Origin: Halosolutus halophilus
GTDB taxonomy: Archaea; Halobacteriota; Halobacteria; Halobacteriales; Natrialbaceae
Direction: 5' to 3'
Length of the DNA: 64,000 bases
NCBI RefSeq assembly: GCF_022869805.1
Contig: NZ_CP094974.1
Coordinates: 682,001-746,000, forward strand
This document shows positions 11,008-54,643 of the stretch, piece by piece. How positions within the stretch are numbered: the stretch's first letter is position 1; every line of letters starts with the position of its first letter. The notes under the pieces are model-generated. The model was not told where the DNA came from and made no database searches. It saw only the letters and a program-made list of their open reading frames with translations. Both the position numbers and the translations under genes were made by a program.

Positions 11008-12288
11008 TTAGAGCCAGATCATCGAGATGGCAGGGATCATCCCGATCGCGAGGACGATTATCGTCATAGATATTATGAACGGGATGGAGCGCTTGGCGAT
11101 CTTTGTGATCGGTTCCCCACTAATCCCTGCCATAACGTAGAGGTTGAGTCCGATTGGCGGTGTCATGAATCCGATTCCGAGAGCAGACACCATGAATACG
11201 ACGAAGTGGACCGGATCCATTCCGACCTCCGTCGCTACTGGTAGGAGTAACGGGCCCAGAATTAGAATGTTCGGTGTCGTTTCCATTACAGCTCCCGCAA
11301 TCATAAATATAATAAACATTATTATAATTATCAAGTAAAAATTAGTGGTGAGTGCCGTGAGATAGCCGACGACCTGTTGGGGGAGACGGAGTGCGGAAAG
11401 AACTTGACTAAATAAAATCGCGACTGCAATAATCGGTGAAATAACCCCGTTAACTAGTGCACTTCTCTCGAACATTCCGGGGAAGTCGGAGAGTGGAAGC
11501 CGCCCACCTGCGACGCCGATAACTATTGTCAGGAGGACAGCCACGGCTGCTGCCTCGCTCGGTGTAAAAACACCTGAATAAATCCCGCCAAGAATGATCA
11601 CCGGGATCATTAGAGCGAATTTCGCCTCCCAAACCGAATTACCGACTTCTTTCGGTTCGGGATGACCCGTGGCTTGCTCATAATTTTCCTTATGGTTAAC
11701 AAACATATTTGTGAGGATTAATCCAGAAAGTACGATGATTCCCGGGATAAATGCCGCAAGAAAGAGCGTAGACGCTGAAACGCCGAGAGCAACGCCGGCA
11801 ATAATGTACGCAATACTTGGCGGAATGAGAATACCAGTGGACGCACCACTAGCAATAAGAGCAGAAGCATATGACCGATCGTATCCTGTGTCATCAAGAT
11901 AATTGATAGTCATCCGACCAACTGCTGCAGCAGCGGATGCGTTCGAGCCACTAATTGCTGCAAACAGCCCACAACCGAATAAAGTAGCTGTGCCGAGAGC
12001 GCTACTGAACCCGGCAAAGACGGCTTCAGCGAATTGGAGCAATTTTTCGGATAAACCGGTTCCTGCCAGTGCATCCCCTGTAAGAATGAACAGGGGAACA
12101 GCAATCAGGGGGAACGAATTTAATCCATTGAATATGGATTCCCCGACGATCGAAAACGGCAAGATGCTAGTCATTTGTAACAGTACTAATGTGCCGATCC
12201 CTAACCAAGCGATTACAGGAACCCCTAGTAGCATCAAAACGATCATTAATACTACTGGGAGTATCACTTCAAATCCTACCATGATCAC
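11008..12288 (-). CDS. dctM: TRAP transporter large permease (DctM)
   Basis: The 426-residue product is a polytopic membrane protein of the DctM/TRAP large-subunit family: about 12 hydrophobic segments, GSNASAAAAVGRM near residues 113-125, SGASTGILIPPS near 147-158 and GFMTPPIGLNLYV near the C-terminus, all family hallmarks. It forms the sodium-driven translocation channel of a tripartite ATP-independent transporter for small carboxylates or sulfonates. The ATG overlaps the stop of dctQ (ATGA). Neighbours (SDR, SuyAB, SuyZ, HpsN-like genes) suggest that the substrate is a C3 sulfonate, which is inference. Confidence 0.92.
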   Translation of the reverse strand: MIMVGFEVILPVVLMIVLMLLGVPVIAWLGIGTLVLLQMTSILPFSIVGESIFNGLNSFPLIAVPLFILTGDALAGTGLSEKLLQFAEAVFAGFSSALGTATLFGCGLFAAISGSNASAAAAVGRMTINYLDDTGYDRSYASALIASGASTGILIPPSIAYIIAGVALGVSASTLFLAAFIPGIIVLSGLILTNMFVNHKENYEQATGHPEPKEVGNSVWEAKFALMIPVIILGGIYSGVFTPSEAAAVAVLLTIVIGVAGGRLPLSDFPGMFERSALVNGVISPIIAVAILFSQVLSALRLPQQVVGYLTALTTNFYLIIIIMFIIFMIAGAVMETTPNILILGPLLLPVATEVGMDPVHFVVFMVSALGIGFMTPPIGLNLYVMAGISGEPITKIAKRSIPFIISMTIIVLAIGMIPAISMIWL

Positions 12289-12854
12289 TCACTGAATAAT
12301 GTTTCTCCTTTGTAGACCGGTTCGCCGTTCTTTATGTCTTGGACGTCCCTATACGTTGCTTGCAATATTCGGATCACAAAGAGTGACATCCCAAACGGGA
12401 TCGCGACCTGGAAGAAGGCGAGGTTCACGCGTAGCGCTTGGCTGACCGATCCAAATGTTATTGAATTCTGTATGAGCGGGATTGAGATCTGTATCGCCGC
12501 GACAGAGAATATCAGCATCATGAGATCCCCGAGCACATATAGTAGCCCAGTAGTGCGTTCGGAAACGTAATCGTGGATAATATCTATTCGAATATGCAGC
12601 CGTTCGTTGACGCCCCAGCTCGCGCCGATCCATGTTAAATATATGAACATATACCGCGCTGATTCTGGCCCCCACAAGCTGGACATGTTGAGAACGAATC
12701 GGCGGAATACCTCTGTCCCGATGATAAAGACGATATAGGTATACAGGGTGAGCAGTAACACCCGTTCTGCATTACTGTTCAAATAATAAATGATATTCGC
12801 CACGCTACTCCGGAAGCGTCCATTAACACTGAACGAGGGTTCTGTGGTGCTCAT
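12285..12854 (-). CDS. dctQ: TRAP transporter small permease (DctQ)
   Basis: The 189-residue product has four hydrophobic helices and the DctQ pattern (WGPESARYMFIYLTWIGAS, followed by a conserved HIRIDI segment). It is the small membrane subunit that pairs with DctM. It lies 5 nt downstream of dctP and overlaps dctM by 4 nt, so the three genes are clearly one operon (13972 to 11008). Confidence 0.9.
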   Translation of the reverse strand: MSTTEPSFSVNGRFRSSVANIIYYLNSNAERVLLLTLYTYIVFIIGTEVFRRFVLNMSSLWGPESARYMFIYLTWIGASWGVNERLHIRIDIIHDYVSERTTGLLYVLGDLMMLIFSVAAIQISIPLIQNSITFGSVSQALRVNLAFFQVAIPFGMSLFVIRILQATYRDVQDIKNGEPVYKGETLFSE

Positions 12855-12859
12855 CTGTA

Positions 12860-13972
12860 CTATGGTTCATCAACGGTGAAATCACTCTGTTCCTGGGTGG
12901 CTTCCTCTAACCGTTCGAACGTTTCCATATCACCCGCCAACTCCACCTTCCAGTCATCCCAGTCCGATTGATCATATGCCATCTCATTACGCCACTCCTC
13001 GAGTTCATCGTCATTCAGACTGTGAATTTCCACCCCGTTATCTTCAAGGACCTCGTACGAGTTCTCTCGAGAGATCGGGACTTGCTCGAGGTTTTGTTCG
13101 AACGTCTGTTCTGCTGCACTTGAAAGTCCGTCCTGCAGGTCCTCTGGGAGGCTCTGGTACCACTCCGAGTTCACAGCATACACCTGAGCGTCTTCAACAA
13201 TATTCGTCAAGGTGACGTGTGAAATGATGTCTTCAAAGCCGAAAGCAACGTATGCTTCGGGAGCCGTGTGGACTGTATCCGCAACCCCTTCTTGAATTGC
13301 GGACGGTGTTTCACCCCAATCAACAGGTGTCGGATTCGCATCGACCATTCCCCATGCCTCGGATAAGATGTCAGAACCGGGGACCCGGTGCCGCAGCCCT
13401 GCCATGTCCGACGGCGACAGTATTGGCTCATCCACGGCATCTCCCACAGCAACAGCACGTGGATCAATCACGAGATAGAACAAGGGTTCAAATCCATTTT
13501 CACGCACGTTTTCGTGAACAATATCATTCCAGGCATCGCTCGTGACAAGGTTCACAAACTCTTGGTTCGTTCCGGCAAAGTACGGAAGGTTGACGAGGTC
13601 CACCGCACTGGCATACGGTGAAAAGTTGGCAAACGAGAATTGAGCCGCCTGGATCGTATTGTTTTGGACTTGATTTGCGAGTTCAGCGCCTGCTCCGAGC
13701 ACACCACCGGGATGATGATTGACTTGGATTCGGCCGTCCGTCTCCGCCTCGACGTTCTCAATGAACGCCTTTTGCATCACAGGGTAATGTTCTGTGGTAC
13801 CTTCCGTGTACGCCGTCGCAAAATCCAACGTGAATTCTCCATCCCCGCCCCCGCCTCCAGTACCGCTTTGTCCGCCGAGACAGCCGGCAACCGCCCCGAT
13901 TCCGCTAACGGCCGTGATTTTGAGAACCGATCTCCGACTACTACCTGAAGCATCTGAATGCTTTCGTGGCAT
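12860..13972 (-). CDS. dctP: TRAP transporter substrate-binding lipoprotein (DctP)
   Basis: The 370-residue product has a Tat lipoprotein signal (SSRRSVLKITAVSG, then a lipobox AVAGC) and a Gly-rich linker before the mature binding domain. The DctP fold is supported by LRHRVPGSDIL near residue 190, by VDWGETPSAIQEGVADTVH and by the spacing of the rest. It captures the substrate outside the cell, anchored by its Cys lipid. A TATA-like element (ATTATAAATAG on the minus strand, about 13999-14009) stands upstream, divergent from the SDR promoter. The substrate is predicted to be a small anionic sulfonate or hydroxyacid from context only. Confidence 0.9.
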   Translation of the reverse strand: MPRKHSDASGSSRRSVLKITAVSGIGAVAGCLGGQSGTGGGGGDGEFTLDFATAYTEGTTEHYPVMQKAFIENVEAETDGRIQVNHHPGGVLGAGAELANQVQNNTIQAAQFSFANFSPYASAVDLVNLPYFAGTNQEFVNLVTSDAWNDIVHENVRENGFEPLFYLVIDPRAVAVGDAVDEPILSPSDMAGLRHRVPGSDILSEAWGMVDANPTPVDWGETPSAIQEGVADTVHTAPEAYVAFGFEDIISHVTLTNIVEDAQVYAVNSEWYQSLPEDLQDGLSSAAEQTFEQNLEQVPISRENSYEVLEDNGVEIHSLNDDELEEWRNEMAYDQSDWDDWKVELAGDMETFERLEEATQEQSDFTVDEP

Positions 13973-14088
13973 ACATCCACATGCATATTATCCCACCTAT
14001 TTATAATTATTGGTGAACTTTTTTCGTTAGAGTACTGTGTCCTAGGTTTCAATAATGTTTATATGTGGTGATTGTGATCTCAAGTTGT
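13973..14088. promoter_or_regulatory. Divergent promoter region dctPQM / SDR
   Basis: The 116-bp gap contains a TATA-like element for each side: ATTATAAATAG reading left (about 13999-14009) and AATGTTTATATG reading right (about 14053-14064, 25-36 nt before the SDR ATG at 14089). The placing of both suggests coordinated divergent expression, possibly by the IclR regulator at 20014. No clear palindromic operator was found. Confidence 0.45.
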
Positions 14089-14844
14089 ATGCTTGACGGT
14101 AAGACTGCCGTAGTAACTGGCGGGTCAAGTGGTATCGGAAGAGCGATCGCACAGAAGTACGCAGCCGAGGGAGCCGCTGTCGTCATTGGGGATCAGAAAG
14201 AAGAGCCCCGCCGAGCAGAACTCCCCACAGTAGAAACAATTGAAAAGGAAGGTGGTGAGGCAACGTTCGTATCAACAGACGTCACTGAATACCAGGATGT
14301 TGTCGACCTAGTCGAGGTCGCTGATAGAGAGTACGGGAGCGTTGATATCATGGTGAACAATGCGGGGATTCTCCAGCAGACGCTACTCCATGAAACCTCT
14401 TCAGAGCAGTGGGAGGAGCTAATGGACATTAATGTGACTGGGGTGTTCCACGGATCCAAAGCGGCTATTCAAAAAATGCTGGAGCAGGACTCCGGAGGAA
14501 ATATCGTCAATATCTCTTCCATCAGTGGCTCCATTGGACGCGCTAACGCGCCAGCATATTGTACCTCAAAGGGGGCTGTAACCATGATGACTCGACAAAA
14601 TGCGATCGATTATGGCCCAAAAGGAATCCGAGTCAATGCTGTAGGTCCAGGAGGGACGTTGACATCGATGGTATATGAAACGATGTCAGAAGAGCGCCGT
14701 GAATACCTAGAAATGCAGACCCCGCTGAGGAGGCTCGCTGAGCCGGATGAAATCGCTGAGGTTGCGACGTTTCTTGCGTCAGATATGGCAAGCTATGTCA
14801 ATGGGCACGTTCTCTTCGCTGATGGGGGATTCTCGATCTCATAG
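14089..14844 (+). CDS. SDR oxidoreductase, candidate DHPS/sulfolactate-pathway dehydrogenase
   Basis: The 251-residue product is a classical SDR: TGGSSGIGRA cofactor motif near residue 8, NNAGIL, active-site Ser in NISSISGS, and Y-x-x-x-K in YCTSKGA. A Gly/Asp-rich GDQKE after the second strand suits NAD. An in-frame GTG lies upstream at 14065, but the family start and the TATA-like spacing favour the ATG at 14089. In bacterial dihydroxypropanesulfonate (DHPS) degradation, SDR enzymes HpsO and HpsP interconvert DHPS enantiomers beside HpsN. The gene order here (TRAP, SDR, SuyBA, SuyZ, HpsN-like, IclR) supports such a role, but any 2-hydroxy substrate is possible. Confidence 0.85.
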   Translation: MLDGKTAVVTGGSSGIGRAIAQKYAAEGAAVVIGDQKEEPRRAELPTVETIEKEGGEATFVSTDVTEYQDVVDLVEVADREYGSVDIMVNNAGILQQTLLHETSSEQWEELMDINVTGVFHGSKAAIQKMLEQDSGGNIVNISSISGSIGRANAPAYCTSKGAVTMMTRQNAIDYGPKGIRVNAVGPGGTLTSMVYETMSEERREYLEMQTPLRRLAEPDEIAEVATFLASDMASYVNGHVLFADGGFSIS

Positions 14845-15148: not shown

Positions 15149-16312
15149 TTATGTCGACGGACCGATCCGGTGGATCGCGAACTGACTTTCGCCGAGCACT
15201 TCGCTGAGTGTTTGCTTGCCGTTGACGACCTCCATGATCTCGTCCCAGAGTTCGTCGGTGGCCCAGTCGATCGTCTGGTCGCCGACCAGCGCTTCGCTGA
15301 CGTCGACGTCGGTTTCTTCGGGAACGCGTTCGGCGCTGCCGGGGTTCCCGGTGATCTTGATCGTCGGCATGATCGCGTTCGAGAGGGTGTGGCCCTGGCC
15401 CGTGGAGATGATCATGAAGTGTGCGCCGCCGGCACCGATCCCGGTGACTGATTCTGCGCCGTGGCCGGGCGAGTCCATGATGTACATGCCACTCTCCTCG
15501 GGAATTTGCTCGGCGTAGTCGACCAGGTCCTGGATGGGGCCGTCGCCGGATTTGACCAGCGCGCCGAGGGCTTTCTCCTCGATGGTCGTCAGCCCACCGT
15601 CCATGTTGTCCGGCGTCGGCTGGGCGCCCCGGACGTCGTAGCCGGTCTCTTGCAGTCGCTGGTCCCAGTTATCGACGTAGTCCAGAATCTTCTGGGCGAC
15701 GTCGTCGTTGACCGCGCGTTCGGCCAGCCCTTCCTCACCGCCGAAGAACTCCGGCGTTTCCGCGAAGACGGCGCGGCCGCCTTCGTCGATGAGCCGCCAG
15801 GCGGCCCCTGCAGTGGCCTTGTGCTGGCAGAGGCCGCTGGTGGTGTCCGAGGTCGCACAATTGATCCCGAAGGTGAGATTCGAGATGTCATGGGGCTGGC
15901 GCTGCTGGGCGCTGGCGTCCTGGACCATCTCGCGGGTGGCGTTGACGGTGGCTTTGAGGCCGTTCATCACGCCCTTCTCGTCGTGGATGTTGATGCTCGC
16001 ACTCGGGCGGCCGGTCTCCGCGATGTCGTCGGCCAGTTCGTCGCCGTCAACGATCTCGCCGGCGTGGGCGACCACGACCGCCCCGTAGGTGTTCGGGTGG
16101 GTGGCATAGCCGAGCAGCGTCCGGTAGGTCTGGAAGACGTCGGGTTTCGTCTGACACCGCCCCAGCGGATGGGTGATCGGGATCGCATCGTCGACGATCT
16201 CCGCCGCTCGCTTTACCGTGTCGTTGGCGTACGGGGCCGTCGCGATGATCGGGACGAAGTTTCGAATGCCAATACTGCCGTCAGATCGTTCGTATCCGAG
16301 AAAGTCTGTCAT
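15149..16312 (-). CDS. suyB: Large subunit of sulfolactate sulfo-lyase (UxaA superfamily), copy 1
   Basis: The 387-residue product is a UxaA/altronate-dehydratase large domain without the SAF part (GIRNFVPII, HPLGRCQTK, FGINCATSDTTSGL, MYIMDSPGHGAESVTG, GQGHTL). SuyB is the known member of this superfamily that works with a separate SAF subunit, SuyA, to split (R)-3-sulfolactate into pyruvate and sulfite. Here the SAF gene lies 28 nt upstream, a SuyZ-type exporter follows, and HpsN- and ComC-like genes are in the window. All of this favours SuyB over altronate or galactarate dehydratase, though those remain possible. The protein is identical to that of copy 2 at 30877; the genes differ at 11 third-codon positions. 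It is distinctly more GC-rich than the genes around it. Confidence 0.75.
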   Translation of the reverse strand: MTDFLGYERSDGSIGIRNFVPIIATAPYANDTVKRAAEIVDDAIPITHPLGRCQTKPDVFQTYRTLLGYATHPNTYGAVVVAHAGEIVDGDELADDIAETGRPSASINIHDEKGVMNGLKATVNATREMVQDASAQQRQPHDISNLTFGINCATSDTTSGLCQHKATAGAAWRLIDEGGRAVFAETPEFFGGEEGLAERAVNDDVAQKILDYVDNWDQRLQETGYDVRGAQPTPDNMDGGLTTIEEKALGALVKSGDGPIQDLVDYAEQIPEESGMYIMDSPGHGAESVTGIGAGGAHFMIISTGQGHTLSNAIMPTIKITGNPGSAERVPEETDVDVSEALVGDQTIDWATDELWDEIMEVVNGKQTLSEVLGESQFAIHRIGPST

Positions 16313-16340: not shown

Positions 16341-16646
16341 TTATGCGGTCTCCTCGGCTAGGTCGCCGCGGCCGTAGTTGCTCTCGACGTTGTGCGCGTG
16401 GACCCACTCGCCCGCCTCGATATCCCGAGAGGCGTAGCCGATACTGAGTCCGTACTTGTACACCGTCTCACCCTCAGGGATGTCCTCGAGGGCGATCTTG
16501 TGGCCAAACGTGACATCTTCCGCCACTTCGACTGTGACTTCGTTGTCGCCGACGTCAACTGTCACTGTCTCGCCGCCGTTCAGTTCTCGAATGGCGGTCG
16601 CAACGTTGTCATCTGATTCTACCGCTACGATGTGGGAATCACCCAT
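16341..16646 (-). CDS. suyA: Small SAF-domain subunit of sulfolactate sulfo-lyase, copy 1
   Basis: The 101-residue product is a stand-alone SAF/UxaA N-terminal domain: GHKIALEDIPEG, VYKYGLSIG, then WVHAHNVES. In the UxaA superfamily this domain closes over the active site of the large subunit. SuyA and SuyB are separate proteins in known sulfolactate sulfo-lyases, as here. A TATA-like ACTATTTTAG on the minus strand (about 16671-16680) is about 27 nt upstream of the ATG, so suyAB has its own promoter separate from suyZ (133-bp gap). It differs from copy 2 at about residues 23-42. Confidence 0.75.
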   Translation of the reverse strand: MGDSHIVAVESDDNVATAIRELNGGETVTVDVGDNEVTVEVAEDVTFGHKIALEDIPEGETVYKYGLSIGYASRDIEAGEWVHAHNVESNYGRGDLAEETA

Positions 16647-16779: not shown

Positions 16780-17820
16780 TCATCCGAGAATAGTCAACAG
16801 AACCAACAGCGACAGCGTGCTAACGGTGATGAACGCCATCAAAACAACGAGTACGGGTTGTAGACCTGCACGCAGGAGCTTTTCAATTTCGAGGTCGCTT
16901 CCCAGACCGACGAACGCGAACAAGAACAGCCAGCCATAGGCGTTCTCAAGTGACTGCACGTCTTGTGAGGAGAGAAGCCCGACGCTCGCAATAACCGCAA
17001 GTACAAGGAAGCCAACAACAAATTTCGGGAAACGGTGCCAGAACTCTCTCCAGCGGATAGTGGTTCCGTCGTCATTTGAGCCAATTTCATGGCGGGCATA
17101 GTACGTTGCGTAACCGACGGCAACGAGACCGAGCAGTGCGTTCCGTGTGAGTTTCGTGACTGTTGCCCACTGGCCGGCGGCGTCTGAGTGAGCAAATCCA
17201 ACAGCAACAACAGGGCCCGTGCTGAACATACTTACGCCAGCCCAGATGCCAAACACCTGTGCTGGCAGCTCTAACAGCTGGCCGACGATTGGATAGCCAA
17301 TGATAGTGATCGCATCAAAGAGGAGGACAGTCGCTGCTGCATAAGCGACGTGCTCTTCTTTTGCAGAGATACTTCCAGCAACAGCAACGACCGCCGATAC
17401 GCCACAGATACTGGAACCCGCCGCGAGTAGTGATGCGAATCTCTCAGAGAGTCCAAAAACCCCTCTAGACAATAGTTCTACATAGAGGAGTGTAAAGAGT
17501 GTGACAGTGAGCACCGAAATAATGGCGACAGCACCACTCTCGACAATTTGATTGAAAGACAGAGATGCGCCCATGAGCACGATGCCGGCACCAAGCCACA
17601 CCTTGTGTGTTTGCACACCGGGAACCGCCCACTCTGGAATACCGGTAGTATTCGTAAGAACTACGCCAATAATGATCGCGATAAGTAACTCATTGATAGT
17701 CGAGATTGCTGACCCAATCGTCCAAGCGATGACCGCTCCAACGACCAGTATAAGGATTCCCGGGAGGTAATCGCGAAAGTAGTAGCCGACCGGACCATCG
17801 TACGGCAGATTTACAACCAT
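16780..17820 (-). CDS. suyZ: YeiH-family (COG2855) membrane exporter, SuyZ-like
   Basis: The 346-residue product is polytopic, with about 10 hydrophobic segments and YeiH-family landmarks: VVLTNTTGIPEWAVPGV, KVWLGAGIVLMGASL, the AAGSSICGVSAVVAVA loop and FAFVGLGSDLEI near the end. YeiH/COG2855 proteins are predicted anion (sulfite or sulfate) exporters, and SuyZ of sulfolactate and cysteate degraders belongs to this family. The product of SuyAB is sulfite, so export of sulfite or sulfate is the natural job. A 38-residue ORF precedes it by 3 nt. A broken paralog lies beside the second suyAB copy at 32476-32941, so this may be the only functional exporter in the window. Confidence 0.8.
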   Translation of the reverse strand: MVVNLPYDGPVGYYFRDYLPGILILVVGAVIAWTIGSAISTINELLIAIIIGVVLTNTTGIPEWAVPGVQTHKVWLGAGIVLMGASLSFNQIVESGAVAIISVLTVTLFTLLYVELLSRGVFGLSERFASLLAAGSSICGVSAVVAVAGSISAKEEHVAYAAATVLLFDAITIIGYPIVGQLLELPAQVFGIWAGVSMFSTGPVVAVGFAHSDAAGQWATVTKLTRNALLGLVAVGYATYYARHEIGSNDDGTTIRWREFWHRFPKFVVGFLVLAVIASVGLLSSQDVQSLENAYGWLFLFAFVGLGSDLEIEKLLRAGLQPVLVVLMAFITVSTLSLLVLLTILG

Positions 17821-20013: not shown

Positions 20014-20787
20014 ATGGCTGAAGGAACCACCGGCCGAAGCGACCTGAAAACAGTAGAAAAAGCGTTCCAGATAGTGACTCTCATACAAGAGAATAATGGC
20101 GCTCGAATCTCCGAAATTGCAAGCGAGCTTGAGGTGCCGAAAAGCACAGTTCATCGGCATGTCTCTACGCTAAATAATCACGGCTACCTAGTCCAAGAAG
20201 GCGAGAAATACTATGTTGGATTACGGTTTCTTGACCATGGGATCCACGCTCGAAATCGTGAAAAAGCATACCCATTAGTTAGAGAGGTGGTTGATGAACT
20301 CGCAAGTGAAACCGGCGATCGGGTACAGTTCATATGTGAAGAACAGGGAAAGGGAATTCACATCTACAACAAAGTGGGCGAACACGCGATGCAAACAGAT
20401 ACGAGAATTGGAAAGCAGATCTACCTCCACTCGGCTGCAGCTGGAAAGGCAATCCTTGCGGAACTGCCTGATGAACAGGTATCAGAGGTTATCACCAAAC
20501 GTGGCTTACCGGCTCTTACTTCTCGGACAATCACAGACGAGACGCGGCTCTTAGAGGAACTTGAAGAGGTCGAGGAACGTGGGGTTGCTTTTAACGATCA
20601 AGAACGAATCGAAGGGCTTCGGAGTGTTGGCATCCCAATTATTGGGACGAATGATCGTTTAATAGGTGCAGTGAGTATTTCTGGAACTACACACCGTATG
20701 TCCGGGGATAGATATAAAAAGGAAATTCCTGACCATCTGCTTGGAATTACCGATGAAATCCGTCTAAAATTGGAATATAGCGAGTGA
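20014..20787 (+). CDS. IclR-family transcriptional regulator
   Basis: The 257-residue product has an N-terminal winged helix (about residues 8-70: RSDLKTVEKAFQIVTLIQ, ISEIASELEVPKSTVHRHV, then NNHGYLVQEG) and a C-terminal IclR effector domain (RVQFICEEQGKG, HSAAAGKAILAELP, RGVAFNDQERIEGLRSVGIPI). IclR proteins sense small organic acids and often control a neighbouring catabolic operon. Its position at the end of the HpsN/SuyAB/TRAP group suggests it regulates that group. It differs clearly from the second IclR gene at 41539. Confidence 0.88.
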   Translation: MAEGTTGRSDLKTVEKAFQIVTLIQENNGARISEIASELEVPKSTVHRHVSTLNNHGYLVQEGEKYYVGLRFLDHGIHARNREKAYPLVREVVDELASETGDRVQFICEEQGKGIHIYNKVGEHAMQTDTRIGKQIYLHSAAAGKAILAELPDEQVSEVITKRGLPALTSRTITDETRLLEELEEVEERGVAFNDQERIEGLRSVGIPIIGTNDRLIGAVSISGTTHRMSGDRYKKEIPDHLLGITDEIRLKLEYSE

Positions 20788-23291: not shown

Positions 23292-23462
23292 AACCGTCGC
23301 GCCTCGAACCAATCGGCCCGCGATCGTGTACACGGTAGGTGTTATTGCGATCAGAACGCGATCCAGATGGGAGAGTGTACTCGTCCACAAATCGGATAGC
23401 TCCCGCTCCCCCCCGGATGATCGACCAGTAATACATGTACCCCGGGGCGAATGTGGAGAAAG

Positions 23463-47486: not shown

Positions 47487-48485
47487 CTACTCAGTGAGCG
47501 ACTGCACTTCCTCCCAGAGATCGTCGTCGATTGAGATCGTCTCGGCGTTCCGTTCCCGTTTCACTGATCGCTCGCCTGGGAGCCGTATCTCGTCGAAACC
47601 GGAGGCGAGCGGCTCACGTTTGAGCGAGTGGAGATACTCGCTTGCACGGTCCGCGAACCCTTTCCCGGCTAGTGCATCGGGATCGATGATGGCGAAGAGA
47701 TCCCCCTTCGTGCAGGGATCCTCGGTGTGGTACGTCCCGGTGACCTCCCGCCCCATTGCCGCCCCGACGAGCCCGCCGGCCAATATCTCCACAGCGATCG
47801 CCAGTCCCGATCCTTTAGGGCCGCCGAAAGGAAGTATCGTCCCTTCTAGGGCTGCCTCCGGGTCGGTCGTTGGCTCGCCTTGCGAGTCGAGAGCGATTTC
47901 TTCCGAAATGGATCCGCCCTGCTCGCTCTTCTCAAGGATCTTCCCCCGGGCGATGCTGGAGGTACTCATATCGAGATTGAAAGGTGGGTGGGTGGGTAGA
48001 CCGATCGCGATTGGATTCGTTCCCAGAATGGGTTCGGAGCCGCCGTAGGGGGGCATGGCTGGCTCTGTATTGGTCATGCCGATAGCGACGTACCCATCGT
48101 GGCGCGCCTGGTTTGTGTAATATCCGAGCATCCCGAGGTGATTAGAGCTGTGTGCACCGACCACGCCGACGCCGTACTCGTCAGCGCGGTCCATCGCCTC
48201 GGCGATCGCCCTAGTTGCAACAGTCGCGCCTAACTTCGATCCGCCGTCAAGCGTTGCCGCAGCCCCTGAATCACGCACCACCTCGATTTTGCCCTCGGGA
48301 TCGACGTTTCCGTGCTCGATTCCACGGACGTACCGTGGTAGCCGGAGGAGGCCATGTGATCCTTTGCCCATCGCATCAGCCGTCACGAGGACGTCGGCGG
48401 CGAGGTCGGAATCCGCGGGTGCGATGCCGTGGGCCTGGAACGCCTCGGATGCGACGCGTTTCGCACGCGACCTGTCGACCTCCAT
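47487..48485 (-). CDS. comC: LDH2-family dehydrogenase, ComC-like, second copy
   Basis: The 332-residue product shares all landmarks with the copy at 29871 (GKGSHGLLRLPRYVRG, TNTEPAMPPYGGSEP, GTNPIAIGLPTH, FNLDMSTSSIARG, ILPFGGPKGSGLA). The start at 48485 is set by comparison with that copy. It ends about 230 bp from the SlcC-like gene. Here no suyAB is next to it, but the Soe-like operon begins on the same strand to the right, which suggests a common theme of sulfonate oxidation. Confidence 0.75.
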   Translation of the reverse strand: MEVDRSRAKRVASEAFQAHGIAPADSDLAADVLVTADAMGKGSHGLLRLPRYVRGIEHGNVDPEGKIEVVRDSGAAATLDGGSKLGATVATRAIAEAMDRADEYGVGVVGAHSSNHLGMLGYYTNQARHDGYVAIGMTNTEPAMPPYGGSEPILGTNPIAIGLPTHPPFNLDMSTSSIARGKILEKSEQGGSISEEIALDSQGEPTTDPEAALEGTILPFGGPKGSGLAIAVEILAGGLVGAAMGREVTGTYHTEDPCTKGDLFAIIDPDALAGKGFADRASEYLHSLKREPLASGFDEIRLPGERSVKRERNAETISIDDDLWEEVQSLTE

Positions 48486-48690
48486 CAGATCGCCTCCGAT
48501 CGGTTGCCCGCTGCCGGCCGTCCGGCTGTTCGTTCGATCGGGGCCGTGCTGTAACATCCTGTTCGCGGCGAACGGTTGAGCTGATTCGAGTCGTGTGTTC
48601 TCATACCACTGATCGCCTCACACCGGATATTCCGAGAGGACGCACATAAAACACCGGTTCGCCGGTGGCAGGATGCGAGATCGCGCTAGC

Positions 48691-49866
48691 TCAGGATTCC
48701 GTTAGCCGATCGCCGCCAGTCGTAGCGAGCCGGTCGATGCGGGCGGCCGTCCGTGTACAGATCTGGTCGAACGCATTCCGGAGAGGGCCAGCGTCCTCCC
48801 GTATGACGACCGGATCGGGAAGCTCCTCCCGTTCACGCTCCTCACGCGTCCGGGGAAGGTCGAGCCGACCGATGACGGGCACTTCGATTCCTGGCGGGTT
48901 GACATCCTCCTCCCGATTCGGTGCACCGACGGCAGGATTCAGGGGGAGCCGTCCGAGCACTGGCACGTCGAACCGCTCGCTCAGCCGTCGAGCACCGCCG
49001 GTATCGAAGATTTCGTGGGTGGATCCACAATCCGGACAGTCGAAGCGGCTCATGTTCTCTACGATACCGAGGATCGGAACGTCGTACCGATCGAAGGCAC
49101 GCAGCCCCCGTTTAGCGTCCTCGATGGCGACTGGCTGTGGGGTCGTGACGATCACAGCACCGGACAATGGAAGAGATTGAGTGAGCGTCAGGTGAGCGTC
49201 GCCGGTTCCGGGCGGGAGATCGACGACGAGGTAGTCCAGACTGCCCCACTGGACATCCGTCAGTAGTTGCTTGAGGGAGTCGTCAACGAGTACGCCTCGC
49301 CATATCACGGGATCATCTTCGCCGACGAGAAAGTCCATGCTCATCGCCTTCACGCCGTGGGCGGTCCGGGGACGGATTCGGTCGTCGAGCGTCGTCTCGG
49401 GTGTCCGATCGGACAGCCCCAACATCGCCGGGGCATTCGGACCGTAGACGTCGGCATCGAGCAAGCCGACGTCGCTCCCGCTTCGAGCGAGGGAGACGGC
49501 CAAGTTCGTCGCGACCGTGCTCTTGCCGACGCCACCCTTTCCGCTTGCGACCGCGACGACGTGTTTCACGTCCGAGAGGGCATCGATGCGGACGCCCGGA
49601 TCCGGAACCGCTGGCTCCCAGACCACCTCAACAGTCGTGACGCCTGTAACCTCCAGCGCAGCGACCCTGATCTCTCGCTCGAGGCGATCTCGGACTGGGC
49701 CAGGCGGGACCGGGATCCTGACCCGGACCGTGACGGTTTCCCCGGCTACGGTCACGTCTCCACTCCCGACGAGATCAGTGCCGCCGCTCCCCCCGTCGAT
49801 CGTCACGCTGGTGAGTCGCTCACTGACGCGCTCGACCGTTTCATGTCGGGGCGTGTCCGCAACCAT
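48691..49866 (-). CDS. ApbC/Mrp-family iron-sulfur cluster carrier ATPase
   Basis: The 391-residue product has an N-terminal DUF59-like region and a P-loop ATPase domain with the deviant Walker A VASGKGGVGKST (about 126-137), LLDADVYGPN, VDLPPGTGD and ENMSRFDCPDCG, including a Cys-x2-Cys pair used by Mrp proteins to hold a 4Fe-4S cluster. The ATG at 49866 overlaps the stop of the preceding molybdopterin subunit by one base (TGATG), showing tight coupling. It probably helps mature the several clusters of the oxidoreductase. Confidence 0.9.
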   Translation of the reverse strand: MVADTPRHETVERVSERLTSVTIDGGSGGTDLVGSGDVTVAGETVTVRVRIPVPPGPVRDRLEREIRVAALEVTGVTTVEVVWEPAVPDPGVRIDALSDVKHVVAVASGKGGVGKSTVATNLAVSLARSGSDVGLLDADVYGPNAPAMLGLSDRTPETTLDDRIRPRTAHGVKAMSMDFLVGEDDPVIWRGVLVDDSLKQLLTDVQWGSLDYLVVDLPPGTGDAHLTLTQSLPLSGAVIVTTPQPVAIEDAKRGLRAFDRYDVPILGIVENMSRFDCPDCGSTHEIFDTGGARRLSERFDVPVLGRLPLNPAVGAPNREEDVNPPGIEVPVIGRLDLPRTREEREREELPDPVVIREDAGPLRNAFDQICTRTAARIDRLATTGGDRLTES

Positions 49867-52800
49867 CAGTTCGACCTCGAGGACCGCTCCTCGGGGTCCC
49901 AGCGCTCGGGTCGACCGACGGGACCGCCGACGTACCACGCCTCGTCGTCACCGTTCGTCGGCGGGGCAACGGGCCGTTTGAGCCACTTGGGTCGACGCAA
50001 CCCCTCCGGTCCCGGTGCGGCGTTCGTCTCGTCGAGCCACTCGCGATAGATCGCCATGGCTCGCTCGGTGTCGACGTAGACGTCGCCGTAGTAGTCGTCG
50101 TCTTCGGCCGGTCGCACCGTGACCTTTTGATGCCAACAATGCATCCCCGAGATCGGGTCGGGATGGGGTGCGTGCGTGAGGTTCTGCGCAACCCCTCCAT
50201 CGGTCCACCAGACGCGCTCGCTGTCCGGATCGTCGCTCTCGAACGGACCGATCCCATCGACCTGACGCATTCCCCACTGGCTCTCGGCGTTGTCCAGTGC
50301 CACCGTCACCTTTCCGTAGGGATCGCCACCCTCTTCCGCCTCCCCGTCGCCGTCCTCTCGGTCGATCTTCCACTGACCCATATGGTGAGACATGGCAGTG
50401 ATCCCGGGCTTGATCGATTCGGTCACCCACACCTCGTTCACGAAGTAGCCGATGTCCGTCTCCACACGGACGAGGTCACCGGTCTCGACGCCCAGCCTGT
50501 GGGCGTCCCTGGTGTGCAGCCAGACGGGGTTATTATGGGAGATTTCCTCGAGCCACTTGGAGTTTGACGACCGGGAGTGGATCTGGGTCGGAAGTCGAAA
50601 CGTCGGCACCAGTACCATCTCGCCGTCGTCGTAGTCGATGTTCTCGGGGTGGACATGGCTCTTTAGGTAGTGGGGGATGGTGTACTCCTCGTCGTCCCAG
50701 CCCCACTCCGCGATCGTCTTCGAATAGAACTGCTGTTTTCCGGTCGGGGTGGGAAACCCGCGTTTCGGTTCGCCGTCGACCATCACGCCCAGCACTTCTG
50801 AGCTATCCGACTCGGAGGCCGTCTCCGGCCGATCACCCCGGCGGATCGTGCCGTACTCGTCGACCCACACGTCGTCATCCTCGAGGATTGACTCGTCGAT
50901 TGGTTCCTCGTGAAGCACATAGTCGTTCGTCGAAGCCTCGAAGGCGCCGTGATGTTTCATGTACTCCAGAGGTGTCATCCCTTCCGCGTCGGCGCGCTCG
51001 ACGAGGGCCTCCTCGTGTTCGAAGACGTACCTGTAGTACTCGTCGATCGTCATCTTCGGTGGTTCCTCGCCGTCGTCGCCCTCGCGGTACGGACTCTCGA
51101 AGTGTTCGCGAATCCCAAGTTCGCCGTCCTCGTCGAGCTGCCAGGAGAGTTCGATCCAGAACTCGTCTTCTTCCCATACCTCACCGGGATTTGCCTCGTA
51201 GGTGTACTCGACGTTCTCGCCCTCGCGCTCGGCGAACTCCCGAAGGACGGGCTGACGGTAGGTGACCCACGTTCCGGCGTGGGTCTCCTGGCTCTGGATG
51301 TCGTGGCGCTCCGGACTGTGGCCCATCGGCAGGACGTAGTCGGCGAAGTACGCCGTCTCGTTCCAAGTAGGCGTGAGCGCGACGTGCATCCCGACCATCT
51401 CCTCGTCGCTCAGCGCCTCGATCCAGGAGAACCCGTCAGGGTAGGTGTAGACGGGGTTGAACACGCGGGTGAAATACACCGACAACTTCCCGCGGCCCTC
51501 CTTGAGGAAGTACGGCAACAGCTGACTCATCTCGTAGTGGGCGAAGGGATACTCGACGGGCAACTGGAGTTCGTCCCAGAGTGTCTGGCGCGGCGGCTCC
51601 TTCGGCATCTCCGGCTCGAACTTGTGCCATGCGTTCGGCGACGTTCCGCCTTTCGTCCCGACGCTCCCGGTCAAGACTGACAGGAAGTGCAGACACCGCG
51701 AGACCTGCCAACCACCGCGGTTGCCGCTGGCGGCGCTGCGCCAGATGTGGCTCGCGAACCGATCGCCGGCGGTACCGATCTTCCGGCCGATCGTTTCGAT
51801 CTTCGCGGCGTCGACGCCGCTTTCGCCCGCCGCAGACTGGGGCGTAAACTCCGCATAGATTTCCTTCAGCGTCCGGATATAGGTCTCGAAGCTGCGTTCG
51901 CGGTCGGGATACTCCTCATCAAGGAATTGTCCCCAATTGACCCAGTTCCGGAGGAATTCTGCGTCGTAGAGGTCTTCCTTGAGGATCACGTTCGCCATCG
52001 ACAGCAGGACGGCAGCCTCGCTGCCGGGCTGGGTCGGCAGCCAGTGGTCGGCCATCGCCGCGGTGTTCGAGAGCCGTGGATCCATCACTGCGAGCTGTCC
52101 ACCGTCTTGCATGCCCTCGATGATCCGCTGTGCGTGCGGATTGAAGTAGTGTCCAGATTCGAGGTGGGCCGACAGAAGCAAAACGACTTCCGCATTGGCG
52201 AAGTCCGCGCTCGGCCGGTCGTACTTATGCCAGAGGGCATACCCGGCCCGCGCGCCTGCACTACAAATATTCGTATGCGAATTGTGACCGTCCAGCCCCC
52301 AAGCGTCGATGACCCGATCCATGAATCCCTCGTGGCCCGGGCGTCCGACGTGGTAAGTAATCTCGTTTTCTCGGCCGTCTTCGATAGTCTTGCGCATCTC
52401 ACTGGCAATATCATCGAGAGCGTCTTCCCAGGAGACGCGTTTCCACTTGCCGCTCCCTCGCGGTCCGTCGCGCCTGAGCGGGTATCGGATGCGCTGGGGG
52501 TCGGTCAGCTGATTGATCGTCGCCGGTCCTTTCGCGCAGTTGCGCCCGCGCGAGCCAGGGTGTTCGGGGTTCCCCTCGATCTTCCGAATCTCCCCGGTTT
52601 CCTTGTCGATGTAGGTCAGGAGGCCACAGCCGGCCTCGCAGTTGAAACACGCCGTCGGAACGAGCGAGTATTCGCGGGGTTCGCCGCTGGACTCGTACTC
52701 CAGGTAGGAGTCCCACGTCTCGGGATCGGGATAGGACGCGAGCTGACCGTCAGGACCGATGCTTTCGACGCCGTCGGCGCCGAGTCGCTGGCGTTGCTTT

Positions 52801-52883
52801 TTCGTGTCTGTCGTTCGGTTCGACAGAATACCTAGCCGTTCGGCGAGTCGTTCGACTCGAGTCGGAGTGAAGTTGTTTCCCAT
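49866..52883 (-). CDS. soeA: Cytoplasmic molybdopterin oxidoreductase, SoeA-like catalytic subunit
   Basis: The 1005-residue product is a DMSO-reductase-superfamily enzyme. An N-terminal 4Fe-4S site uses Cys79, Cys82, Cys86 and Cys116; Cys207 (SHTNICSAGARAG) is the likely Mo ligand; TGSVGTKGG and HGAF segments follow, and the C-terminal domain has VWLHTRDAHRLGVETGDLV. No Tat signal is visible, so it stays in the cytoplasm, as in sulfite dehydrogenase SoeABC and unlike Psr/Phs. It starts 2 nt after the fused FeS/NrfD gene; frame upstream of 52883 is antiparallel noise. Inferred role: sulfite to sulfate, electrons to quinone. Other oxyanion substrates remain possible. Confidence 0.8.
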   Translation of the reverse strand: MGNNFTPTRVERLAERLGILSNRTTDTKKQRQRLGADGVESIGPDGQLASYPDPETWDSYLEYESSGEPREYSLVPTACFNCEAGCGLLTYIDKETGEIRKIEGNPEHPGSRGRNCAKGPATINQLTDPQRIRYPLRRDGPRGSGKWKRVSWEDALDDIASEMRKTIEDGRENEITYHVGRPGHEGFMDRVIDAWGLDGHNSHTNICSAGARAGYALWHKYDRPSADFANAEVVLLLSAHLESGHYFNPHAQRIIEGMQDGGQLAVMDPRLSNTAAMADHWLPTQPGSEAAVLLSMANVILKEDLYDAEFLRNWVNWGQFLDEEYPDRERSFETYIRTLKEIYAEFTPQSAAGESGVDAAKIETIGRKIGTAGDRFASHIWRSAASGNRGGWQVSRCLHFLSVLTGSVGTKGGTSPNAWHKFEPEMPKEPPRQTLWDELQLPVEYPFAHYEMSQLLPYFLKEGRGKLSVYFTRVFNPVYTYPDGFSWIEALSDEEMVGMHVALTPTWNETAYFADYVLPMGHSPERHDIQSQETHAGTWVTYRQPVLREFAEREGENVEYTYEANPGEVWEEDEFWIELSWQLDEDGELGIREHFESPYREGDDGEEPPKMTIDEYYRYVFEHEEALVERADAEGMTPLEYMKHHGAFEASTNDYVLHEEPIDESILEDDDVWVDEYGTIRRGDRPETASESDSSEVLGVMVDGEPKRGFPTPTGKQQFYSKTIAEWGWDDEEYTIPHYLKSHVHPENIDYDDGEMVLVPTFRLPTQIHSRSSNSKWLEEISHNNPVWLHTRDAHRLGVETGDLVRVETDIGYFVNEVWVTESIKPGITAMSHHMGQWKIDREDGDGEAEEGGDPYGKVTVALDNAESQWGMRQVDGIGPFESDDPDSERVWWTDGGVAQNLTHAPHPDPISGMHCWHQKVTVRPAEDDDYYGDVYVDTERAMAIYREWLDETNAAPGPEGLRRPKWLKRPVAPPTNGDDEAWYVGGPVGRPERWDPEERSSRSN

Positions 52884-52885
52884 GG

Positions 52886-54643
52886 TTACGCGAGTGAAAT
52901 GGTTTGTGGTGCGGTAATCCAACAGTACTCGAAGGCGAAGAGGCCGGCCAGTGCCGCGATGCCCGCGGCGGCGACGACCGGCCCGGTTCCACTGATTGCG
53001 ATCAGGATGAGTGGGACGGCGATCCCCAGGGCAATCCCGCCGATCCAGAACGCAGTACTGAACTCCCCCCGGACGATCCGGGCGGCGGCCTCCTCGGCGT
53101 CTTCGGTCTGGTGAGGAGTGAGGATCTCTGACCCGATCAGTGCCAGGTGGACGACCAGTCCGGCCGCAAGCAGTAGCCTCGATGGACCCACGAATGTCCC
53201 GATCCCGATCAGTCCCATCAGTGCGGTCGCGGCGGCGCCCGCGACGACCGCCTGCACGAACATGTGAAGCGGCATCGCCGGGCTCTGCCAAAGGTCGCGT
53301 CCCTTCGACTGGCTGAACAGGAATGCCGTATAGACGGCGGTCGCGGCTGCAAGCGCCCCACCTGCCACGAGAGAGGTGGGGTGGACGACAGCGTCGACGC
53401 CGAGCAGCCAGCCGACGACCACGAGCCCGAGATACCCACCGTACGCCGTGATGATGTACGCGCCTCTCACCAGCCACGATTTCCAGTTGGGTCGCAGCAG
53501 CACCCAGTGGAACCGTCCGGGCCGATCCAAATCGAGGATCAGCAAAACACCGGTCAAACCGAGGAACGCTGCACTGACTGTAGCACTGGCCCCGATCAGG
53601 TCCAGCGAGGGTTCGATCAGTCCCGTCAACATCAGTAGTACGGGCAACAGGAAGACGCCGGCGCTGATCGACTTCGTCCACGTGTAGGAGTACACCTCCC
53701 ATCCCCACGACGTCCGATGGTTCTCGGCGACGTCGTACACCCTCTTCGCCTCGGTCTGGAGGAGTTCGTAGGCCCGTTCGGTCCGGCTTGATCCGACGTC
53801 CGCCGACGTCCCGGACCTGGCGCCGCCGTCGGAGGCGACGCGGTCGCTCCCTTCGTCGCAGTCACAACTATCACAGCCACAACCCTCTTTTCTGCCGGGT
53901 CGCTCGCCGCCGTCAGCCTTGGGTTCGATCATGCTCCTGTCGCTGTTCGACAGGGAGACATCCGATTCGGCGAGCGACTGGGCGGCACGCTCGAGGTCGA
54001 AGTCCTCGCGGGCTGCACCGCGAGTTTCGACCTGGTTGGGTGCATCGCTCCACATGTAGTGTTCCCCCCGGTCGGTCGATTCGGGCGTGATCGAACTCTC
54101 GTCCCCCTCGACGTAGAAGAGGTTCGGTTCGGTCCCTTTCTCGGGCTTGCGGGCTTGCACCTCCTGTCCGGAGATCGTCCCGCTAATCTCAGTCTCCGGG
54201 TTCTCCATGTCCCCAGCGATGATCGCGTCCTCCGGACAAACGGTCACGCAAGCGGGTTCTCGTCCCGAGTCGACCCGGTGGGAACAGTAGTTGCACTTCG
54301 TTGCGGTGGACGTCTCTGGATCGATATAAAGGGCGTCGTACGGGCATCCCTGCATACACGCCTTGCAACCAATACACCGTTCGGTGTCGAAGTCAACGAT
54401 CCCGTCTTCCCGTTCCCAGAGTGCGGTTACTGGGCAGACGTCAGTACATGGCGAATCGGCGCAGTGGTTGCATCGCATCACCGAAAACTTCCGACTCGTT
54501 TGCGGGAAATTTCCCTTTTCGATATACTTCACCCACGTCTTGTTGACACCGATCGGATCGTCGTGTTCAGCTTTACACGCGACCGTACACGCGTGACATC
54601 CGATACACCGCCGGTTGTCGATGACAAATCCGTAGTTAGTCAT
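52886..54643 (-). CDS. Fused FeS (SoeB-like) and NrfD membrane (SoeC-like) subunit
   Basis: The 585-residue product begins with a four-cluster ferredoxin domain (Cys13, 16, 19 and 23; RCNHCADSPC; RCIGCKACMQGCPYDALY; KCNYCSHRVD), continuing GTEPNLFY as in SoeB. A linker of about 110 residues carries a Cys cluster (Cys255, 257, 260, 262). An NrfD/PsrC-type domain with about eight membrane helices runs from about residue 327 to the end. No Tat signal. Known SoeB and SoeC are separate proteins, so this is a fusion. It is the first gene of the operon and feeds electrons from the Mo subunit to the quinone pool. Confidence 0.85.
   Translation of the reverse strand: MTNYGFVIDNRRCIGCHACTVACKAEHDDPIGVNKTWVKYIEKGNFPQTSRKFSVMRCNHCADSPCTDVCPVTALWEREDGIVDFDTERCIGCKACMQGCPYDALYIDPETSTATKCNYCSHRVDSGREPACVTVCPEDAIIAGDMENPETEISGTISGQEVQARKPEKGTEPNLFYVEGDESSITPESTDRGEHYMWSDAPNQVETRGAAREDFDLERAAQSLAESDVSLSNSDRSMIEPKADGGERPGRKEGCGCDSCDCDEGSDRVASDGGARSGTSADVGSSRTERAYELLQTEAKRVYDVAENHRTSWGWEVYSYTWTKSISAGVFLLPVLLMLTGLIEPSLDLIGASATVSAAFLGLTGVLLILDLDRPGRFHWVLLRPNWKSWLVRGAYIITAYGGYLGLVVVGWLLGVDAVVHPTSLVAGGALAAATAVYTAFLFSQSKGRDLWQSPAMPLHMFVQAVVAGAAATALMGLIGIGTFVGPSRLLLAAGLVVHLALIGSEILTPHQTEDAEEAAARIVRGEFSTAFWIGGIALGIAVPLILIAISGTGPVVAAAGIAALAGLFAFEYCWITAPQTISLA

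Follow-up and report, generated by a model that had tools for sequence, protein, structure and literature searches.

A putative dihydroxypropanesulfonate module and a proposed sulfo-sugar module of haloarchaea appear to share the sulfolactate lyase SuyAB

The window analyzed here, a stretch of 64,000 nucleotides (bases 682001-746000) from the 5.06-Mb single-contig genome of the haloarchaeon Halosolutus halophilus, carries homologs of organosulfonate-degradation genes, among them two pairs for the sulfolactate sulfo-lyase SuyAB, and the question it raises is whether these genes form one route or several. A first-pass annotation had proposed a single, complete route from organosulfonate to sulfate. 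The gene classes and positions given there hold up, each class corresponding to an intact open reading frame (ORF) with a strong family match; the interpretation is partly supported and can be sharpened, since the genes share SuyAB but are more naturally described as two or three modules in parallel than as one linear route. Three are distinguishable across the window. Module 1 (11.0-20.8 kb; 11008-20787) encodes a tripartite ATP-independent periplasmic (TRAP) importer, a short-chain dehydrogenase/reductase (SDR), an HpsN-like dehydrogenase, SuyAB and SuyZ, and would be a module for 2,3-dihydroxypropane-1-sulfonate (DHPS). Module 2 (22.2-42.3 kb) encodes a sugar ATP-binding cassette (ABC) importer, a glycoside hydrolase of family 31 (GH31), an aldose 1-dehydrogenase, an enolase-type dehydratase, a pyruvate aldolase and an aldehyde dehydrogenase (ALDH), with SlcC, ComC and SuyAB inside the set, and may represent a widespread haloarchaeal sulfo-sugar module. 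Module 3 follows. The families matched are DctM/Q/P, SDR, two pairs of GD_AH_C and SAF (SuyB/SuyA), Cons_hypoth698 (SuyZ), Histidinol_dh, Gfo/Idh/MocA, MR_MLE and ALDH, two Ldh_2 (ComC) and two 2-Hacid_dh (SlcC), the last four ORFs bearing out the SlcC and ComC pairs noted earlier; a region resembling the sulfite oxidase Soe adds a molybdenum (Mo) oxidoreductase, a fusion of iron-sulfur (FeS) and NrfD domains and a ParA/NUBPL (Mrp/ApbC) protein. Likely start sites were placed at 52883 for the Mo-oxidoreductase (1005 aa), 37583 for the MR_MLE protein and 27276 for the ALDH.

We think it probable that the routes run in parallel and converge on (R)-sulfolactate, with SuyAB as their common lyase, module 1 serving DHPS and module 2 being an Entner-Doudoroff pathway for a 6-sulfo-sugar. 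The scheme builds on observed genes, gene order, conservation, signature residues and joint presence or absence, and every reaction in it is predicted from these. In module 1, the TRAP system would import DHPS, the SDR would help to interconvert its stereoisomers, and HpsN would oxidize R-DHPS to R-sulfolactate. In module 2, the ABC system would import a 6-sulfo-sugar or its glycoside, with GH31 possibly releasing the sugar; the Gfo6-type dehydrogenase would oxidize C1, the lactone opening spontaneously or by an unseen enzyme, and the enolase-type dehydratase would then give a 2-keto-3,6-dideoxy-6-sulfo-hexonate. An aldolase of the dihydrodipicolinate synthase (DHDPS) type would cleave this to pyruvate and S-sulfolactaldehyde, the ALDH would make S-sulfolactate from the latter, and SlcC and ComC would invert S-sulfolactate via sulfopyruvate. 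In both modules SuyAB would split R-sulfolactate into pyruvate and sulfite; in module 1, SuyZ would export the sulfite. The sugar itself would be sulfoquinovose, with sulfofucose almost as likely.

For module 2 the question could be addressed by conservation. In other haloarchaeal named records, 39 SuyB pattern matches yielded 18 confirmed SuyB loci, and in 15 of these the sugar gene set lies around suyAB, the kind of co-occurrence for which a database search had been proposed. ComC is present in all 15 and SlcC in 14, the missing SlcC falling at a contig end; of the other three loci, one is a module 1 (L022), one a module 3 (L010) and one a SuyZ-SuyA-SuyB set with a remote SlcC-like protein (L013). 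In a class-wide sample of 391 haloarchaeal genomes, with thresholds of E<=1e-100 for SuyB and at least 81% identity for the module 2 dehydratase, 15 genomes from 12 of 86 genera carry SuyB and 20 carry the dehydratase, whose next best match stands at 75%; 13 genomes have both (Fisher p 1.2e-17), and in one, G247, SuyB lies outside the cluster. Cluster DNA was covered for all 20 dehydratase genomes, through twin records for G095, G277, G284, G316 and G382 and in two contigs for G346. SlcC, ComC and SuyAB stand jointly in the cluster in 12 of the 20 (G000, G048, G073, G095, G217, G277, G284, G316, G337, G346, G368, G382; nine genera). SuyA, SuyB, SlcC and ComC are all without a match in the other eight clusters (G075, G137, G175, G216, G247, G278, G312, G349), which keep Gfo6, ALDH, aldolase, binding protein, permeases, dehydratase, GH31, ATPase and the IclR regulator. 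The sugar set noted earlier around one suyAB-comC operon thus does more than surround it: in 15 of 18 named loci and 12 of 20 clusters it forms a conserved unit with suyAB.

The SlcC-ComC-SuyAB block changes state four times on the dehydratase tree, and three times on the less resolved Gfo6 tree. Four switches mean that joint presence and absence is not a single event; the simple odds of the joint pattern are 8e-6, which overstates the case because the clusters share ancestry, and the switch count is the sounder measure. As the block is what would turn S-sulfolactate into pyruvate and sulfite, and the constant part of the cluster could take a C6 sugar to a C3 hydroxy acid by Entner-Doudoroff steps, this pattern points to a sulfo-sugar. 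The stereochemistry agrees: SlcC and ComC accompany all 12 of the module 2 clusters with SuyAB and are absent from all four module 1 sets. The available part of PMC12421959 treats the S form as the product of sulfo-sugar cleavage, with SlcC and ComC inverting it, and SuyAB is described as R-specific in the accessible text of PMC12890257.

The joint behavior of the block also bears on a different explanation, in which module 2 is an ordinary xyloside or pentose oxidative pathway of the Dahms type (GH31 and GH3 xylosidases, xylose dehydrogenase, xylonate dehydratase, keto-deoxy-pentonate aldolase and glycolaldehyde dehydrogenase) into which suyAB-slcC-comC was inserted as a separate sulfolactate operon. 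In favor of this, eight of the 20 clusters lack the block; against it, the block recurs in the same cluster across nine genera, was gained or lost as a unit, and a SuyZ match is kept in six of the eight block-free clusters (it is found in eight of the 12 block-bearing ones, that of the window being a remnant). The two enzymes on which a pentose pathway would depend point both ways. The Gfo6-type dehydrogenase (22209..23291, plus strand) and GH31 (37717..40068, plus strand) each pass the cut-off of their NCBIfam model, GH31 has the alpha-xylosidase YicI as its top match in PDB, and both are single-copy in the genome (E<=1e-20), which leaves no other xylose dehydrogenase of that family. On the other side, the Gfo6 proteins of the cluster fall into a single clade (100/99, 24 rows), separate from five further clades, which include members of hexose-type clusters (with dgoD, 2-keto-3-deoxy-6-phosphogluconate aldolase and 2-keto-3-deoxygluconate kinase, in Haloferax and Natronorubrum) and of a pentosan-type cluster (Haloterrigena); the library name "xylose dehydrogenase" thus seems to cover several substrates. 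In GH31, the YicI pocket positions are changed (F277G, C307P, I346E and N347H, with W315 also replaced), so that the enzyme need not be a xylosidase, but C307P and I346E occur in both outgroup enzymes as well and F277G in one of them, which leaves N347H as the cluster's own. Eight GH31 positions are invariant in 21 full-length cluster members and differ from four comparators. Taken with the switches, these data make the pentose pathway with an inserted operon an unlikely account.

Several observations nevertheless weigh against module 2 as a sulfo-sugar pathway. GH31 is closest to YicI (455.7 bits, versus 216.5 for YihQ) and passes the xylosidase model; in the alignment with YihQ, the sulfonate loop K300-W304 and Y508 fall in gaps, and the window protein has E and R in place of Q262 and Q288. 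The NCBIfam name of the dehydrogenase, whose model NF041392 gives 510.9 against a cut-off of 350, is D-xylose 1-dehydrogenase. The ABC sugar-binding protein (28496..29770, minus strand; PF01547) finds trehalose/maltose binders as its best PDB matches (235.2 bits), with SmoF lower among them at 135.7. There is no lactonase among 29 annotated features around a sister cluster, and ComC, ALDH, aldolase and dehydratase all score below their NCBIfam cut-offs. Finally, dehydratase relatives at 74-75% identity (a second locus in G312, and G356 and G304) adjoin an aldolase (52-53%), with an SlcC-like protein (53-54%) in two of the three, and their stretches hold no match to SuyAB, Gfo6, ALDH or GH31; the dehydratase-aldolase pair therefore also serves another route. 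Loci L131, L132 and L141 represent a haloarchaeal cluster type of this kind, in which the 74-75% relatives stand with further MR_MLE proteins and ABC genes and without a SuyAB match.

GH31 sulfoquinovosidases bind the sulfonate through residues of the QQRWY or KERWY type, and no such motif is present in the window GH31, which was rejected as a classical sulfoquinovosidase on its residues; it is possibly a new kind of sulfo-glycosidase. GH188 sequences are reported from a small number of archaea (PMC10755693, available part), and Gfo6 is unlikely to be a GH188 sulfoquinovosidase: among its 49 PDB matches at E<=1e-8 no chain is named as such, and the best are sugar oxidoreductases.

The remaining genes of module 2 fit the proposed roles at family level. 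The "pyruvate aldolase" of the first-pass annotation is the plus-strand ORF of the DHDPS family at 27455..28339, a candidate aldolase for 2-keto-3,6-dideoxy-6-sulfogluconate matched below cut-off by both TIGR00674 and Arch_KDGaldase; the two minus-strand ORFs there have no Pfam family. The proposed sulfolactaldehyde dehydrogenase (25816..27276, minus strand) has lactaldehyde dehydrogenases as its best models, and the best NCBIfam model of the ComC-like protein (29871..30872, minus strand; PF02615) is L-sulfolactate dehydrogenase. The SlcC-like 2-hydroxyacid dehydrogenase (35305..36270, minus strand; PF02826) is 39% identical over 241 aa to the hydroxyacid dehydrogenase adjoining comC in Paracoccus seriniphilus, and the putative sulfogluconate or sulfogalactonate dehydratase (36324..37583, minus strand) combines PF13378 and PF02746, the family pair of bacterial SfcF. 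A GH3 glycosidase (23451..25799), which is not present in every cluster, an ABC ATPase of the MalK/UgpC type (40131..41282) and an IclR regulator (41461..42321), all on the plus strand, were assigned by family match, and two ABC sugar permeases (33302-34267 and 34269-35165, plus strand) by PF00528.

Among known systems, the closest is the sulfofucolytic Entner-Doudoroff pathway with sulfolactate sulfo-lyase of the bacterium Paracoccus wurundjeri (PMC12421959), which, from the available part of that paper, has in common with module 2 the ABC import, a PF13378/PF02746 dehydratase, retro-aldol cleavage, SlcC, ComC and SuyAB. Its SDR dehydrogenase, lactonase and PF03328 aldolase were not found in module 2, which is archaeal and has instead a Gfo/Idh/MocA dehydrogenase, a DHDPS-type aldolase, a clustered ALDH and GH31, with no lactonase seen. 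The sulfo-Entner-Doudoroff pathway of Pseudomonas putida SQ1 and Rhizobium SRDI565 fits the proposed module 2 role by role (oxidation, dehydration, aldol cleavage to pyruvate and sulfolactaldehyde, then sulfolactate); the SDR, lactonase, PF00920 dehydratase and PF03328 aldolase of the P. putida type are replaced or unseen in module 2, and the sulfolactate excreted there would here be cleaved in the clusters with SuyAB. It is in the choice of dehydratase that a variant of the scheme arises, in which the substrate is a 6-sulfo-sugar other than sulfoquinovose, either sulfofucose or a sulfo-sugar of an S-layer glycan. The P. wurundjeri sulfofucose pathway pairs its PF13378/PF02746 dehydratase with SlcC-ComC-SuyAB, where the sulfo-Entner-Doudoroff pathway for sulfoquinovose uses PF00920 (PMC12421959, available part), and the S-layer of Haloferax volcanii carries sulfoquinovose-hexose repeats (PMC4343526, available part); yet the dehydrogenase and aldolase families differ from those of P. 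wurundjeri too, and the C4 configuration is not fixed by the dehydratase family alone. We hold this variant, which is compatible with the general scheme, to be a reasonable possibility short of an even chance. Haloarchaeal oxidative sugar clusters (gfo6, dgoD, IclR) share the backbone of Gfo6 and an enolase-family dehydratase, whereas in module 2 the Gfo6 clade is distinct and is linked to SuyZ and, in 12 of 20 clusters, to SlcC-ComC-SuyAB.

On balance we lean somewhat toward the view that haloarchaea have a sulfoglycolysis of their own, a 6-sulfo-sugar Entner-Doudoroff pathway built from haloarchaeal sugar-acid enzymes and not taken whole from bacteria, with SlcC-ComC-SuyAB as an optional block and the same SuyAB serving the DHPS module. 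If so, strains without the block would excrete sulfolactate, those with it would release all carbon as pyruvate together with sulfite, and the block-wise gain and loss would mark where primary degraders and sulfolactate feeders may diverge. Sulfoquinovose is produced in vast amounts, and a review of January 2026 describes the known sulfoquinovose pathways as all bacterial, with none characterized in archaea (PMC12890257, available part); the sugar is also part of the H. volcanii S-layer glycan (PMC4343526, available part). The occurrence of suyAB in cold-adapted Halorubrum is on record by annotation (PMC10468875, available part), and besides this the open-access literature matches listed include no archaeal degradation of sulfolactate or DHPS and no archaeal sulfoglycolysis. 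What would be new is thus the haloarchaeal sugar pathway, the SuyAB lyase being already known from haloarchaea. Archaea would then join the sulfonate cycle of brines via an enzyme set missed by gene searches with bacterial references, and cultured plasmid-bearing Haloarcula species make the proposal directly testable.

SuyAB is a two-subunit enzyme of the UxaA superfamily (SAF plus GD_AH_C). Both pairs noted earlier are confirmed: SuyB copy 1 (15149..16312; PF20629/PF04295, with GRCQ and TGQG signatures) and SuyA copy 1 (16341..16646; PF08666, 37% to Cupriavidus pinatubonensis SuyA) in module 1, and SuyB copy 2 (30877..32040) and SuyA copy 2 (32067..32372) in module 2, all on the minus strand. 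Superfamily membership alone would allow these proteins to be sugar-acid dehydratases of the altronate, galactarate or fuconate type that act on no sulfonate. The haloarchaeal proteins are indeed 40-41% identical to haloarchaeal UxaA-type proteins, compared with 34-38% to bacterial SuyB, and a heteromeric L-fuconate dehydratase has been proposed from gene context (PMC6336799, available part). At four alignment sites, however, a residue is common to 14 haloarchaeal and seven bacterial SuyB-clade proteins and absent from all eight UxaA/GarD-type proteins compared; the two telling ones, in signatures derived in this analysis, are Arg52 (GRCQ/GRLQ) and Gln306 (TGQG, against TGRG in all eight UxaA/GarD-type proteins). 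Five of the seven bacterial proteins have hps, suyZ or slcC-comC neighbors and two come from unannotated records. Fourteen sites tie haloarchaeal SuyB to the UxaA/GarD type, a count that does not favor the dehydratase explanation because 13 sites tie bacterial SuyB to it as well.

In a tree of 33 rows, the 14 haloarchaeal rows group with nine rows from bacteria (95/92), apart from UxaA, GarD and the UxaA-like paralogs of this genome; five of the nine have hpsN, suyZ or slcC-comC neighbors, two are from unannotated records, and the remaining two, from Variovorax and Rhodococcus, are more remote and have slcC/comC-like neighbors. The predicted kinship with bacterial SuyB is not firm: pruning of the long rows leaves a three-way split, and the approximately unbiased (AU) tests give p 0.073 and 0.048 for two alternative SuyB placements and so no firm exclusion. 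Identification by phylogeny alone was set aside, tree and AU tests not being decisive. It is the residues R52 and Q306, in common with SuyB only, and the linkage to SuyZ, ComC, SlcC and an HpsN-type dehydrogenase accompanied by a DHPS-like TRAP system that make a sugar-acid dehydratase without a role in sulfonate metabolism very improbable. Elsewhere in the genome (C1:653843-656684; L001:11843-14684) lie paired UxaA-type paralogs about 40% and 25% identical to SuyB, with ALDH, IclR and MR_MLE homologs near.

The two suyAB copies are closely similar. The SuyB proteins are identical, with 11 DNA differences that all fall at third positions, and the SuyA proteins differ at 6 of 101 residues; over 1498 bp (15149-16646 versus 30877-32372) the copies are 96.5% identical. 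The GC content of third codon positions (GC3) is 0.42-0.59 in the seven other genes of module 1 and 0.70-0.90 in 14 measured genes of modules 2 and 3 and the Soe-like region other than suyAB; with 0.84 and 0.72, SuyB1 and SuyA1 resemble the module 2 copies and are unlike the rest of module 1. Identical SuyB and shared GC3 suggest that one enzyme serves both modules, and the most economical view has module 1 arriving as a low-GC island whose suyAB would later have been replaced with the copy from module 2, likely by gene conversion. A decayed SuyZ remnant (about 32506..32905, minus strand) with frame changes and its middle part lost lies in module 2, and a third suyAB (SuyB 97%) is found about 3.3 kb past the window end, in module 3.

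For module 1, the first-pass annotation's claim of DHPS/sulfolactate genes turns on whether the HisD-family protein (18054..19355, plus strand) is of the HpsN type, a DHPS 3-dehydrogenase, or a true histidinol dehydrogenase. The available part of PMC11382572 gives the HpsN motif as G-R-Y-A/S-H, the final His contacting the sulfonate together with Lys353, and the product as R-sulfolactate. The window protein has GNFTH and FGDK, three orthologs have GHFTH and FGDK, and bacterial HpsN has GRYSH or GRYAH with FGDK; the final His and, following the Zn-ligand Asp, the Lys that contacts the sulfonate are thus both present, while the true HisD of this genome (GSAAY and GDY) is without them. In PDB it scores highest against DHPS dehydrogenases (304.8 and 304.2 bits), ahead of the best HisD at 287.3, and in the tree the protein splits from true HisD at 100/100. 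The grouping with true HisD that would have spoken against the claim did not occur, and a second histidinol dehydrogenase was rejected on the diagnostic residues, the split and the separate genomic HisD; the claim of a DHPS/sulfolactate module is supported. Two points pull the other way: only the first G and last H of the G-R-Y-A/S-H motif are matched in the window protein, and in the tree it is not nested in the bacterial HpsN clade but has its own clade (100/99), so that common descent of the diagnostic His is not established. Orthologs at 69% identity or above occur in three of the 391 genomes. A larger haloarchaeal HpsN family was considered and rejected: in a tier at 53-56% identity the diagnostic His is missing in 27 of 27 loci, which are therefore not counted as HpsN. 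In this HisD-like family (L097-L123) PL replaces the HpsN His and the GDK lysine is kept; one member adjoins an SDR.

The other genes of module 1 are the TRAP large permease (DctM, HpsM-like; 11008..12288; PF06808), small permease (DctQ; 12285..12854; PF04290) and binding protein (DctP; 12860..13972; PF03480), all on the minus strand, the SDR with an HpsO-like predicted role (14065..14844, plus strand; 31% to C. pinatubonensis HpsO), SuyZ, a YeiH-family anion exporter (16780..17820, minus strand; PF03601; 26-28% to bacterial SuyZ), and an IclR regulator presumably of this module (20014..20787, plus strand; PF01614/PF09339). The TRAP proteins are 43-54% identical to those adjoining hpsN in two Rhodobacterales, strain SC52 and P. 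seriniphilus (DctM 49-50%, DctQ 43-47%, DctP 47-54%, with one of the two DctP references incomplete). The whole set (IclR, SDR, SuyZ, SuyA, SuyB, HpsN, DctP, DctQ, DctM) is also present in three further genomes of haloarchaea, G316 (L022), G337 (L137) and Haloarcula pelagica (L171), mutually in the same gene order; relative to these the window has SDR and HpsN swapped, and the SDR homologs (74-76%) accordingly stand at a different place. The absence of SlcC and ComC from module 1 is as predicted if HpsN yields R-sulfolactate. Like the hpsNOP-suyAB systems of C. pinatubonensis and of Rhodobacterales with HpsKLM-type TRAP, module 1 combines TRAP, an HpsN-type dehydrogenase, SDR, SuyAB and SuyZ; unlike them it is archaeal, its HpsN-like clade is separate, and no HpsP-type medium-chain dehydrogenase/reductase was seen in it. 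In H. pelagica, ppsA (phosphoenolpyruvate synthase; L171:13457-15733) lies downstream of module 1, which fits growth on a pyruvate-yielding C3 sulfonate. In strain YJ-61-S of this species, module 1 is carried by one plasmid, and a second plasmid has matches to SuyB, the dehydratase and gfo6 inside a stretch of about 17 kb.

The proposed completion of the route to sulfate is not supported in the form given, the Soe-like oxidase being loosely linked to the other genes. The Soe-like operon, all on the minus strand, consists of an Mrp/ApbC FeS carrier (48691..49866; PF10609), the Mo-oxidoreductase (49866..52883) and the FeS-NrfD fusion (SoeB+SoeC-like; 52886..54643; PF13247/PF03916). It resembles SoeABC in its Mo, FeS and NrfD subunit make-up, and by eye the Mo-subunit translation shows no twin-arginine (Tat) start; it differs from SoeABC in the FeS-NrfD fusion and the Mrp partner. 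The Mo subunit occurs in 12 of the 391 genomes (E<=1e-150), and the complex was not seen at the SuyB locus of any other genome whose locus was read; an integral step of the sulfonate route is a weak candidate role, with four of the 12 genomes shared with SuyB. We give an even chance to the complex being a sulfur-compound reductase or general sulfite detoxifier outside the sulfonate route. Eight of its 12 genomes are without SuyB, a second copy of the Mo subunit (84-85%, two matched pieces) lies elsewhere in this genome at C1:3425670-3428858, and in Natrinema and Rhodococcus the genes for the FeS-NrfD fusion, the Mo subunit and the Mrp carrier keep the same order, next to genes of sulfur metabolism (rhodanese, TauE; DsrE, TusA). 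Set against this are its enrichment with SuyB (four SuyB-positive genomes versus 0.46 expected; Fisher p 6e-4) and a Mo subunit in which no Tat signal is seen by eye, which would fit a cytoplasmic Soe-type enzyme. The complex may thus oxidize the sulfite here, and the 11 of 15 SuyB genomes without a match to it may rely on export.

Module 3 has roles that can be suggested from its homologs. It includes a second SlcC-like dehydrogenase (46282..47253, plus strand, in an ORF from 46201; PF02826), a homolog of which adjoins suyAB in G029, a second ComC-like dehydrogenase (47487..48557, minus strand; PF02615) with L-sulfolactate dehydrogenase as best model, below cut-off, a TRAP binding protein of the TAXI type (55232..56263, minus strand; PF16868) with homologs near suyAB and comC in G337 and G029, and a fused TRAP permease (60967..62880, plus strand; PF06808). 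The third suyAB locus (L003:3278-13420; C1:749278-759420) also encodes TauE, a lyase of the ArgH/fumarase superfamily, FrdA/FrdB-like subunits and an IclR regulator; G029 and G337 have this set as well, and so does Natribaculum luteum by annotation, with TAXI/TRAP genes near, ComC in G029 and G337, and SlcC in G029. Within the window, a Lyase_1 protein (59412-60761) has as its best NCBIfam model XcbD (420 bits, cut-off 600), the 3-sulfopropionylcysteine synthase of bacterial coenzyme M synthesis (NCBIfam), and the G337 module 3 cluster contains a 60% homolog of it.

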